The position numbers and the translations under genes were made by a program. Below, piece by piece: positions 54,256 to 58,820 of a stretch of DNA of 64,000 nt (the stretch's first letter is position 1; the number at the start of each line of letters is the position of its first letter). The notes beneath the pieces were generated by a model. The model ran no database searches and was not told the DNA's origin. It worked only from the letters and a program-made list of their open reading frames with translations. Source of the DNA: Deltaproteobacteria bacterium (GTDB taxonomy: Bacteria > Myxococcota > XYA12-FULL-58-9); NCBI GenBank assembly GCA_016218825.1, contig JACRCV010000037.1, forward strand, positions 1 to 64,000, read 5' to 3'.

Positions 54256-54566
54256 GTTTGCTCTCCAGCTCAGGTTCATGAGGCCCGGAAGAGCAGGATC
54301 TGAGCCACCGGCGAGAACAGATACTGTCATGAAAAACAACAGATTCTAGCACGTCAGCGAGAGACTGTGTGTCCACGATCCAGGACACGCATGGCGCGAC
54401 GTGACCGGGAAGCCAGGCATGTGATTGGGCATACTACGGCACAGGGCGGATTTCTTTGTGAGCCGATCGTTCCGCGCCCTTTCTTGCGTTCCTCGCGCTC
54501 GCGGCTTCGCCTCCGCGCTGCGGTACCGGCGGGCGCGACGGTGACTCGGGTGACGGCGGGATGGCT
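54256..54566. other. 311-bp gap with direct repeat copy 1
   Basis: No gene is evident. It contains the upstream region of the VWA gene on its left, the first copy of a long direct repeat (54458-54540), and the 3' flank of the leftward zinc-finger gene on its right. Confidence 0.6.
54458..54540 (+). repeat. Direct repeat, copy 1 (flanks zinc-finger gene)
   Basis: The 83-bp sequence shares a 52-base identical core (54465-54516) with 55101-55152. Outside the core the two copies differ by one 2-base indel and a few substitutions. It is in the same orientation as copy 2 and 636 bases away from it, with one small gene between them. Confidence 0.8.
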
Positions 54567-54932
54567 CTAGTTGTTGACGGACAGCTCGGTCGATTTGCTG
54601 CTGGGGGGGAGGACGACGGTGGCGCCGAGGTCGAGGTTGTGGCGGCGGGAGAGGCGGGTCTTGCGTTCGCGGTAGCGCCACTGTTGGTAGTGGGCGGAGC
54701 ACAGGCCGCGGGCGACGGCGGTGCGTTCGCACAGCGAGCAGACTCGGCCGTTCTTGTCGGTGGCGGCGTCGGCGTTCTGGGGGTCGACCTGGTCGAGGCG
54801 GCGCTCGATGCGGCTCAAGCGCTTGTTGAAGTCGGAGAGGGTGCGGTCGACCGAGGCTGCGATCTGAATGCGCAGATCTTCCATCAACGAATCAAACAGC
54901 GCCCCGAAATCAGTGCTCTTGCGCGGTGGCAT
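54567..54932 (-). CDS. Small protein with a CxxC...CxxH zinc-finger-like motif
   Basis: The product is 121 aa. Residues about 10-55 form a helical, probably coiled-coil segment (FGALFDSLMEDLRIQIAASVDRTLSDFNKRLSRIERRLDQ). Residues about 62-87 read CSLCERTAVARGLCSAHYQQWRYR, a C-x2-C-x9-C-x2-H pattern seen at the front of HNH nucleases and in small phage-type DNA-binding proteins. The basic tail is RERKTRLSRRH. The ATG at 54932 has GAAGGAG six bases ahead. The gene lies between 82-bp direct repeats, so it may belong to a small insertion. DNA binding is inferred, not shown. Confidence 0.65.
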   Translation of the reverse strand: MPPRKSTDFGALFDSLMEDLRIQIAASVDRTLSDFNKRLSRIERRLDQVDPQNADAATDKNGRVCSLCERTAVARGLCSAHYQQWRYRERKTRLSRRHNLDLGATVVLPPSSKSTELSVNN

Positions 54933-55238
54933 CGATCGCTCCTTCTCGATATCCAATCTTCTTCAGGTTGCGCCCGCCAATATCCGCCCTGATCCCATTT
55001 GTCAATCCTCAACAATTCAACAACTCACGGTGCGGCACGGACGAATCGATAGCATCCACGCGGGGGGCGCGAGCGGACCGTGCCGGTGTCGCCGTGAGCT
55101 GATCGTTCCGCGCCCTTTCTTGCGTTCCTCGCGCTCGCGGCTTCGCCTCCGCTGCAGCACCGGCGGGCGCGACGACAAGGTCGAGTCCAGGCGAAACGGC
55201 TCTGGTGCTGACGACGGGGGAGGGGCTGCGGGGCGCGG
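54933..55238. other. 306-bp gap with direct repeat copy 2
   Basis: No gene is evident between the zinc-finger gene start and the end of atpE. It contains direct repeat copy 2 (55094-55174) and the 3' flank of atpE. The stretch just upstream of the zinc-finger gene (54960-55030) is AT-richer than its surroundings and probably holds its promoter. Confidence 0.6.
55094..55174 (+). repeat. Direct repeat, copy 2 (flanks zinc-finger gene)
   Basis: The 81-bp second copy of the repeat at 54458. The core 55101-55152 is identical to 54465-54516. Confidence 0.8.
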
Positions 55239-56487: not shown

Positions 56488-56880
56488 TCACACCACCTGA
56501 GTCGGCGACGGGCCGGTCTTGTCCGCAGCCGCAAACGCCTGATGTGCGGTCGCGAGGCCGATGGCGACGAACAAGCTCGACAGCCCCAGACCAAACCCGA
56601 GGCCGTCGAGGCGCAGCACCGAAAGGCACAGGGCCATCAGACCCATCATCGCGACCAGCTTCACCGCGAGCGCCAACGCGTACGCCACCTTCGGCTTGCT
56701 GCCCGCGAACGCCTTCACCGCGAAGTAGCGCAGCGCCCAGAAGTTCACGCCCAGCAGCGCGCCGCCCGCCAGCACCGCGAGGGCGCGGCTCGGCCACAAC
56801 CAGAGGCTCAGCGCCACGAACACCACGGTGGTCGCGAGCTGATAGAGGCTCGTGAGGAACAGGGTCTTGTGCGACACCAT
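56488..56880 (-). CDS. atpI: AtpI-like ATP synthase assembly factor
   Basis: The 130-aa protein has four hydrophobic helices (SLYQLATTVVFVALSLWLW, LAVLAGGALLGVNFWALRYF, LALAVKLVAMMGLMALCL, LFVAIGLATAHQAF), the topology of AtpI-type proteins that help c-ring assembly. The stop is three bases before the atpB start. A gap containing two copies of a 53-bp repeat lies upstream. Confidence 0.8.
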   Translation of the reverse strand: MVSHKTLFLTSLYQLATTVVFVALSLWLWPSRALAVLAGGALLGVNFWALRYFAVKAFAGSKPKVAYALALAVKLVAMMGLMALCLSVLRLDGLGFGLGLSSLFVAIGLATAHQAFAAADKTGPSPTQVV

Positions 56881-56948
56881 CGCGGCGCGTGACTATCGCA
56901 GCCCCACCCGCTTGGCAAGCCGTTGCTGTCGTACGGGGCGAGGAGGGG

Positions 56949-57001
56949 GGCGGCGCAGGGCTTTGGTGGAGAGCAGAGGAAGCGTGCCGCCGGGCGGTCC
57001 C
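56949..57001 (+). repeat. 53-bp direct repeat, copy 1
   Basis: The sequence starts GGCGGCGCAGGGCTTTGGTG and ends CCGGGCGGTCCC. An identical copy starts at 57072. The two are 123 bp apart, both upstream of atpI. Confidence 0.8.
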
Positions 57002-57071
57002 GCAGCGAGCAAGGAGGCGACGAGCATCCGGCTAAGCCGGTGCGAGGAGCGGGGGCGCGGGGGGACGCAGA

Positions 57072-57124
57072 GGCGGCGCAGGGCTTTGGTGGAGAGCAGA
57101 GGAAGCGTGCCGCCGGGCGGTCCC
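57072..57124 (+). repeat. 53-bp direct repeat, copy 2
   Basis: Second copy of the repeat at 56949, identical over the 53 bases as read. It ends just left of the terminator of the adjacent RNA gene. Confidence 0.8.
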
Positions 57125-57128
57125 CCCG

Positions 57129-57168
57129 AAACAAAAGAAGACACGGCGAGTGCGCGCTCGCCGTGTCT
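57129..57168 (-). terminator. Rho-independent terminator of the structured RNA
   Basis: On the minus strand, AGACACGGCGAG and CTCGCCGTGTCT form a perfect 12-bp stem around CGCGCA, followed by TCTTTTGTTT. No T-run occurs on the plus side, so it acts only for leftward transcription. No leftward protein gene ends here, so the terminator must serve the RNA gene. Confidence 0.85.
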
Positions 57169-57359
57169 AAAGTCACCTCAGAAAGTCGGAGGGGGCTCCC
57201 TGAGATGGCCGGCCCTACCCGCAAATGCGGGAGGGCACACTGTTTACTATTAGAACGCCGGCGTCTCATTGCGTGACGCCGCTTGTTCTCTACTTTACCA
57301 CCCCTTTCCGCAGCTGACCTGATTTCCCAGGCCCATCTGGTGTGTTAGTGTGTGACCTT
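57129..57359 (-). ncRNA. Structured small RNA, 6S-like architecture (ssrS candidate)
   Basis: The predicted transcript starts near 57359 and ends in the terminator at 57129. The body to 57169 is 191 nt, the usual size of 6S RNA. Its ends pair: 5' AAGGUCAC (57359-57352) with 3' GUGACUUU (57176-57169), eight pairs with one G-U. Inside, AGAUGG pairs with CCAUCU. A terminal arm is built from AGAAC/GUUCU and GGCGUC/GACGCC. A hairpin CCCGC-AUUU-GCGGG lies in what would be the 3' side of a central bubble. A long rod with closing stem, open centre and terminal arm is the 6S layout, which binds sigma-70 RNA polymerase. I cannot confirm the family by sequence alone. It is also possible that this is a new RNA. 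Confidence 0.6.
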
Positions 57360-57366
57360 GAGGTAC

Positions 57367-57394
57367 ATTGTAGGACAATGAGCGCAGACGTCAA
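57367..57394 (-). promoter_or_regulatory. Sigma-70-type promoter of the structured RNA, with overlapping dyad
   Basis: On the minus strand TTGACG (57394-57389) is followed after 16 bases by TACAAT (57372-57367), 5/6 matches in each box. The predicted start is 57359. CATTGT-AGG-ACAATG, a perfect 6-bp dyad at 57366-57380, overlaps the -10 box and could be an operator. Confidence 0.75.
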
Positions 57395-57458
57395 AAAAAG
57401 TGATCATTTTCTTCGTTGAAGACGTCGGCAGGGCGGTCGCGAACCGGGAGCGGAGAAC

Positions 57459-58820
57459 TTGACGAGCGCGCAGGTGGGCGCCGCGCTTGAGCGCGCGGCG
57501 GTGGTGGCGAGCAGGGAGGCGGGGGTTGCGGTCTCGCTCGCCGGCCATTTTCGTTACAACGATGTGTTGATGGCGGCGCGCTTTCGGTTGGCGAACGGGC
57601 TGACGGTGTTGTTGTTGCCGGACGAGCGCGCCCAGATCTTCGCCTACCAAACCTGGTTCCGCGTCGGCTCGAAGCACGAGGACCCCGAGAAGAGCGGCAT
57701 GGCCCACTTCCTCGAGCACCTGATGTTCAAAGGCACCGCGCGCCACCCGCTCGGCGAGCTCGACCGCGAGATGGAGCGCCGCGGCTCGCAAACCAACGCC
57801 GCCACCTGGGTCGACTGGACCTACTACGTCGAGACCCTCGCGACCCACGGCGACAACTTCGCGACCGTCATCGACTTCGAGTCCGACCGCATGACGCGCC
57901 TCATCCTCGACGCCCAGACCTTCGAATCCGAGCTCGAGGTCGTCAAGAACGAGCGGCGGATGAGCGTCGACAACTCGCCCTCGGGCGCGCTCTCCGAAGC
58001 GCTCTACAGCGCCGCGTTCACCAGCCACCCCTACCGTCGCCCGACCATCGGCCTGATGGCGCACCTCGAGCAGATGCAGCGCGACGCGGTCGAGCACTTC
58101 TACCGAACCTACTACGCCCCCAACAACGCCACCGTCGTCGTCGCCGGCGCCCTCGATCCCACCGAAGCCCTGGTGCAGCTCGCGAAAGGCTACGGCGGCC
58201 TCGCGGCGCAAGCGCTGCCGGCGGCGAACCGCATCGTCGAGCCCGAGCAGCGCGAGGCGCGCCAGGTCACGCTCACCCGTCCGGTGGTCTCGCCCATCGT
58301 CGTCGCGGCGTTCCACGCGCCGGCGCAGTTGCAGCCGGACTTCGCGGCGCTGGAGCTGCTCTCCGAGGTGCTGGTGGTCGGCGACAACGCCCGCCTCTAC
58401 CGGCGCCTGGTGACCGAGGACGAGCTGGCGAGCGACGTGATGGGGGTGCTGGTGCCGTTCGCGGAGCCGGGGCTCTACGAGGTCGTCGTCAACGCGCGAC
58501 CGGGGGCCGACGTCGGCCAGATCGTGCGCGTCATCCAAGAAGAGCTCGACCACCTCGCCGACGGCCTGAGCGCCCAAGAGGTCCGCAAGGCGCGCCACGG
58601 CCTCGAGCTCGGGCTCTACGACGGTCTCAAGGACGTCGAGGGCTGCGCCGAGGCCCTCGGCCACTACGAGACCAACTACAAGGACTACACGTTGGCGTTC
58701 ACCGGCATGGACCGCTGGTCGAAGGTCGAGGTCGCGAAGCTGCCGGAGGCCGCGGCGCGGGTGTTCTCGCCCACGAACCGCACGGTCGCGGTGGTGTTGC
58801 CGGGCGAGGGTGGCGCATGA
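57459..58820 (+). CDS. M16 peptidase, catalytic subunit
   Basis: The 453-aa insulinase-family zinc peptidase has the inverted motif HFLEHLMFKGT (HxxEH) at about residue 83, and the downstream ligand Glu lies in ELEVVKNERRM about 75 residues later. The C-terminal domain follows (RARYGLELGLYDG-type block). A TTG start is chosen because GGGAG lies eight bases ahead. The start of the next gene overlaps its end by four bases. It pairs with a non-catalytic partner, like the two-subunit M16 peptidases of bacteria and the mitochondrial processing peptidase. Confidence 0.9.
   Translation: MTSAQVGAALERAAVVASREAGVAVSLAGHFRYNDVLMAARFRLANGLTVLLLPDERAQIFAYQTWFRVGSKHEDPEKSGMAHFLEHLMFKGTARHPLGELDREMERRGSQTNAATWVDWTYYVETLATHGDNFATVIDFESDRMTRLILDAQTFESELEVVKNERRMSVDNSPSGALSEALYSAAFTSHPYRRPTIGLMAHLEQMQRDAVEHFYRTYYAPNNATVVVAGALDPTEALVQLAKGYGGLAAQALPAANRIVEPEQREARQVTLTRPVVSPIVVAAFHAPAQLQPDFAALELLSEVLVVGDNARLYRRLVTEDELASDVMGVLVPFAEPGLYEVVVNARPGADVGQIVRVIQEELDHLADGLSAQEVRKARHGLELGLYDGLKDVEGCAEALGHYETNYKDYTLAFTGMDRWSKVEVAKLPEAAARVFSPTNRTVAVVLPGEGGA

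Follow-up and report, generated by a model that had tools for sequence, protein, structure and literature searches.

A Myxococcota Small RNA Family with an Invariant Anti-Shine-Dalgarno-like Loop and an Invariant Terminator Loop

The window analyzed here, a DNA stretch of 64,000 nucleotides from the genome G000, carries on its minus strand (approximately 57359-57129) a stand-alone small RNA (sRNA) gene, whose promoter is close to consensus and whose terminator is perfect. The gene encodes a conserved, covarying RNA, and homologues were found in seven of the eight genomes of the window's order and in eight of the nine genomes of a second Myxococcota family, f8, giving 15 in total. Both the family and its fold are well supported. 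A literature search found no description of this sRNA, and we regard it as a new sRNA family of an already known functional kind. The RNA is probably a stand-alone, trans-acting antisense RNA, for which we infer expression, a base-pairing mechanism, and targets.

The sRNA Gene and Its Predicted Transcript

The features of the locus, in window coordinates, are as follows:

57367..57394, minus strand: sigma-70-type promoter, with TTGACG at 57394-57389, a 16-nt spacer, and TACAAT at 57372-57367
57129..57360, minus strand: predicted sRNA transcript, starting at about 57360-57359 and ending in the T-tract (from promoter and terminator positions, fold z-score, and homologues)
57210..57359, minus strand: variable 5' domain, differing in sequence and length among relatives and nearly missing in the second Myxococcota family
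57174..57207, minus strand: conserved hairpin, with CAUCUC.../...GAGGUG as its covarying stem and GGGAG/CUUUC as the upper one
57186..57195, minus strand: apical loop CCCCCUCCGA with the anti-Shine-Dalgarno (anti-SD) motif, its core CCCUCC unchanged in all 15 genomes (alignments)
57139..57168, minus strand: intrinsic terminator hairpin, a perfect 12-bp stem that covaries between genomes
57151..57156, minus strand: CGCGCA hexaloop of the terminator, identical in all 15 genomes
57129..57138, minus strand: T-rich terminator tail TCTTTTGTTT
57459..58820, plus strand: M16 peptidase gene, divergent neighbor (Pfam PF00675/PF05193)
56488..56880, minus strand: atpI, co-directional downstream gene (Pfam PF03899)

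An earlier interpretation of this DNA, made from its letters alone (the sequence-only reading), had described an unannotated structured sRNA with a leftward promoter TTGACG-16-TACAAT and a perfect 12-bp terminator followed by a U-tract. Both signals are present. The promoter, on the minus strand at 57394..57367, is the sole promoter-like site in 56800-57700 (50 shuffles, mean 0.0), and the terminator stem at 57168..57139 runs into a T-rich tail. Transcription is predicted to start from the gene's own strong housekeeping-type promoter and to end at its own terminator, yielding an RNA of approximately 230 nt with the terminator included. The 231-nt minus strand folds with a minimum free energy (MFE) of -98.4 kcal/mol (z = -4.3; 0 of 200 shuffles as good), and the part from 57325 reaches z = -5.0. 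The fold, the gene's own promoter and terminator, and the homologues bear out a stand-alone structured sRNA. A search of the region against Rfam release 15 returned no credible family, even at E ≤ 10, and the conservation of the RNA in 15 genomes agrees with the earlier suggestion of a possible new class.

Homologues, Covariation, and Invariant Loops

The 3' half of the RNA was matched by BLASTN in G001, G002, G003, G004, and G007, with no match in the 140 other genomes searched. Aligned in one orientation, these homologues share the promoter, the GGGAGCCCCCUCCGACUU block, and a terminator with the CGCGCA loop. R1, a covariance model covering the 3' half, added G005 and the second family, f8. 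A further model built from five f8 sequences only (R2) recovered six of the seven loci of the first order at the same positions, the window included, with E-values of 2.5e-8 (G000), 1.0e-7 (G001), 8.7e-7 (G003), 9.6e-7 (G002), 3.8e-6 (G007), and 1.1e-4 (G005), and added G024 within f8. The best R2 match among non-carrier genomes was 3.7e-4; G004 was missed by R2, though found by both R1 and BLASTN. Non-member genomes of the same phylum served as the control for the model searches. R1 alone is not decisive for linking the two groups, since it gives even a perfect terminator in G040 a score of 2.7e-5; the link is supported jointly by R2, by both invariant loops, and by promoters that match. Weak model matches elsewhere in the phylum were rejected, since those inspected were without the promoter and the loops, G040 being a mere perfect terminator. 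A motif scan for CCCCTCCGASTY...GCGCGC gave mostly chance matches in GC-rich genomes and was likewise set aside.

An upstream TTGAC element and a -10-like hexamer, in most cases separated by 16 nt, precede all 15 homologues, and every one of them has the terminator. The f8 RNA is short: counted from its predicted start through the terminator loop, it spans approximately 66-75 nt in seven of the genomes, and 108 nt in G024. At about 90 nt overall, it consists of two hairpins, one with a CCCUCCU loop and the other a terminator of the same kind as in the window.

The f8 promoter regions (L132-L139) contain an imperfect inverted repeat, YYACA-N10/11-TGTAR, in the spacer and the -10 region; CCTACATGTAGTACAATGTAGT is one instance, and some changes in it are symmetric, as from CTACATGTAG to CCACATGTGG. 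To judge from its sequence, this repeat looks like a repressor operator overlapping the -10 element. In G024 (L139), a second possible CCCUCC-loop hairpin, CCACCCTCCAGTGG, lies just upstream of the anti-SD hairpin, as if the latter had been duplicated; this possible duplication is reminiscent of the three-fold motif of the αr14 RNAs discussed below.

A joint covariation test was performed on 14 sequences from both groups. Standard pairs filled 96.3% of the pair cells, and 18 of the 22 pairs changed on both sides, so that the covariation among homologues on which the sequence-only reading had made its RNA depend is present. The covariation score was 0.540, against 0.198 ± 0.021 for shuffled and at most 0.151 for slid alignments, values to be read with the bias of alignments fitted to the models' own structure. 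Each lineage on its own gave the same picture, and single sequences, folded without alignment, almost always showed the same pair of hairpins. The CCCUCC loop and the CGCGCA hexaloop are unchanged in every sequence, with the surrounding stems exchanged; in G024, for example, the end of the terminator stem is ACG/CGU in place of GAG/CUC and the hexaloop is kept. In the predicted structures, CCCUCC is mostly unpaired. An invariant loop on an exchanged stem is unusual in an intrinsic terminator.

Candidate Function of the Two Loops

The anti-SD of 16S rRNA reads 5'-CCUCC-3', and the 16S tail GGATCACCTCCTT is present in G000. The loop of the conserved hairpin, (C)CCCUCC(GA), is a copy of this anti-SD tail, and it most likely pairs with ribosome-binding sites of the GGAGGG type in a number of mRNAs. 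Such pairing would block the access of ribosomes and lower the translation of these mRNAs. The invariant CGCGCA loop of the terminator would then be a probable second contact, whether with an mRNA, with another copy of the RNA in a dimer, or with a protein.

A comparable arrangement is found in the αr14 RNAs of Alphaproteobacteria, which carry the anti-SD sequence CCUCCUCCC in the loops of variable-stem hairpins; NfeR1 uses its anti-SD loops to block translation initiation on ntrB and further mRNAs, and anti-SD loops on variable stems are tested working parts of NfeR1 and αr14 (PMC10746234). The likeness of the Myxococcota RNA to αr14, NfeR1, and the cuckoo RNAs lies in their being short, stand-alone RNAs with an ultraconserved anti-SD in a loop on variable stems (PMC10746234). 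It has its own promoter and terminator in a stand-alone gene, as expected of trans-acting anti-SD sRNAs, and its CCCUCC is invariant on covarying stems. It differs in having one CCCUCC(GA/U) hairpin, with a possible second only in G024, where αr14 and cuckoo RNAs have three hairpins, each with CCUCCUCCC, and in its terminator with the invariant CGCGCA loop and no Rfam match. Because the architecture is in principle the same as that of αr14/NfeR1, antisense occlusion of ribosome-binding sites is, by analogy, the most likely mode of action. Listeria LhrC is a more distant parallel: several of its C-rich single-stranded sites, the terminator loop included, reportedly bind SD regions. LhrC differs in sequence, in its CU-rich motifs, and in its firmicute host, and the CGCGCA terminator loop of the Myxococcota RNA is not C-rich.

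Complementarity searches found no target set. In G000, the loop complement TCGGAGGGG occurs at 47 sites versus 19 for the reversed control. For CGGAGGGG with a start codon after it, G001-G004 and G007 showed no enrichment relative to the reversed control, and the excess in G000 is partly due to one repeated sequence. A single 10-nt perfect complement of the loop, TCGGAGGGGG, precedes a start codon, as the SD of an OmpA/MotB-like gene (G000:C44:10187-10195, L118). This gene, which has no clear orthologue for a comparison of conservation, is a possible target of the sRNA, though the sequence match may be due to chance.

The same outcome of the target search speaks for a different, rather unlikely explanation, according to which proteins bind the invariant CCCUCC and CGCGCA loops and the RNA serves as a scaffold or sponge and not as an antisense molecule. 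The stems covary and neither loop varies, and a loop conserved for protein contact would look identical. However, CCUCC is the exact anti-SD sequence, a common antisense seed, and each RNA carries one copy of each motif, whereas sponge RNAs usually have many. We also consider, as an improbable extension, a new RNA class in which an anti-SD mimic sits on a defined scaffold and the CGCG/GCGC part of the terminator loop, which is self-complementary, forms kissing-loop dimers or holds a partner; such an RNA would tune translation broadly and not act on a few targets.

Genomic Neighborhood and Other Readings of the Locus

The M16 peptidase gene adjoins the sRNA in all seven carriers of the window's order. 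The atpI-atpB pair lies downstream in G000 and G003 only, so the adjacency to atpI is incidental; of the proposed setting between atpI and an M16 gene, the M16 side was retained in the relatives and the atpI side was not. In G006 (L192), the M16 gene stands directly beside atpB and no sRNA was found, even with the search filters off; the sRNA was either lost from or never gained at this site. Within f8, where neighbors were named from their translations only, the sRNA is flanked by a beta-barrel-like and a subtilase-like gene in G009, G039, and G044; related neighbors recur in G018 and G030, and different ones are found in G036 and G041. The settings thus differ between the two groups, and the sRNA gene therefore forms an independent unit.

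Two pairs of direct repeats were observed in this part of the window. Copies at 56949-57022 and 57072-57145 (86% over 74 nt) lie in the stretch that separates atpI from the sRNA terminator, and the second of them abuts the terminator; an intergenic pair at 54441-54516 and 55077-55152 (88% over 76 nt) flanks the ORF 54567-54956.

Among myxobacterial RNAs, the Pxr sRNA has the two-component genes pxrR/pxrK upstream (PMC5684412). Pxr is likewise a stem-loop small RNA of this phylum; compared by neighborhood, the new sRNA differs in that its neighbor is an M16 peptidase gene, or genes for TPR and subtilase-like proteins in the case of the second family, with no pxrR/pxrK neighbors. Model searches of Myxococcaceae genomes gave weak matches only, and those inspected were without the motifs.

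In G000 and G003, the sRNA is co-directional with atpI-atpB and separated from them by the terminator, an arrangement that would also suit a 5' leader or attenuator controlling the downstream atp operon. We rejected this very improbable reading because the downstream gene is another one in G001, G002, G004, G005, G007, and all second-family genomes, and because the site in G006 is empty; in the window, moreover, the terminator ends approximately 250 nt ahead of atpI.

The sequence-only reading had favored a divergent 6S RNA, i.e., an open-promoter mimic binding RNA polymerase, on the grounds of a 191-nt rod with paired 5' and 3' ends and a wide center. In the window itself, the closing stem AAGGUCAC/GUGACUUU is part of the MFE structure (pair probability 0.72-0.96), the ends pair around a structured interior, and the length in G000 is similar to that of 6S/SsrS (RF00013). 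In relatives of the same order, however, the stem is not kept (roughly 0.3 in G007 and no higher than 0.09 in G001-G005); the second-family RNAs reach only about 90 nt with two hairpins. The fold predicted for the sRNA in the window is multibranched and no rod, and its predicted length is about 230 nt instead of 191. The proposed check with Rfam 6S covariance models gave no 6S match in 56500-58000 at E ≤ 10, whereas a canonical 6S RNA is encoded at G000:C81:11856-12046 (91.9 bits, cut-off 46.4) and 6S scored above the cut-off in 29 of the 39 related genomes searched. A 6S identity is, on these data, scarcely credible. Upstream of the canonical 6S gene (L005) lie two tRNA genes in the opposite orientation.

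Equally implausible is an mRNA of a very small protein: short ORFs occur here as in any sequence, but those crossing the region are only short or overlapping, the conservation sits in stems and loops, compensatory changes rewrite the stems, the 5' domain varies in length, and no conserved reading frame with synonymous substitution is visible in the relatives, whose indels and stem swaps would break any frame, in keeping with the earlier statement that no protein gene is present.

To our knowledge, post-transcriptional control in Myxococcota has hardly been studied apart from Pxr. The present RNA adds a compact, well-defined sRNA family that is missing from Rfam, and our alignment can be used as the seed of a new Rfam family. 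Its two invariant loops give direct predictions, and the invariant terminator loop with its exchanged stem is a testable feature. If the antisense reading is true, cuckoo-like sRNAs with anti-SD loops would also have arisen or persisted in Myxococcota.
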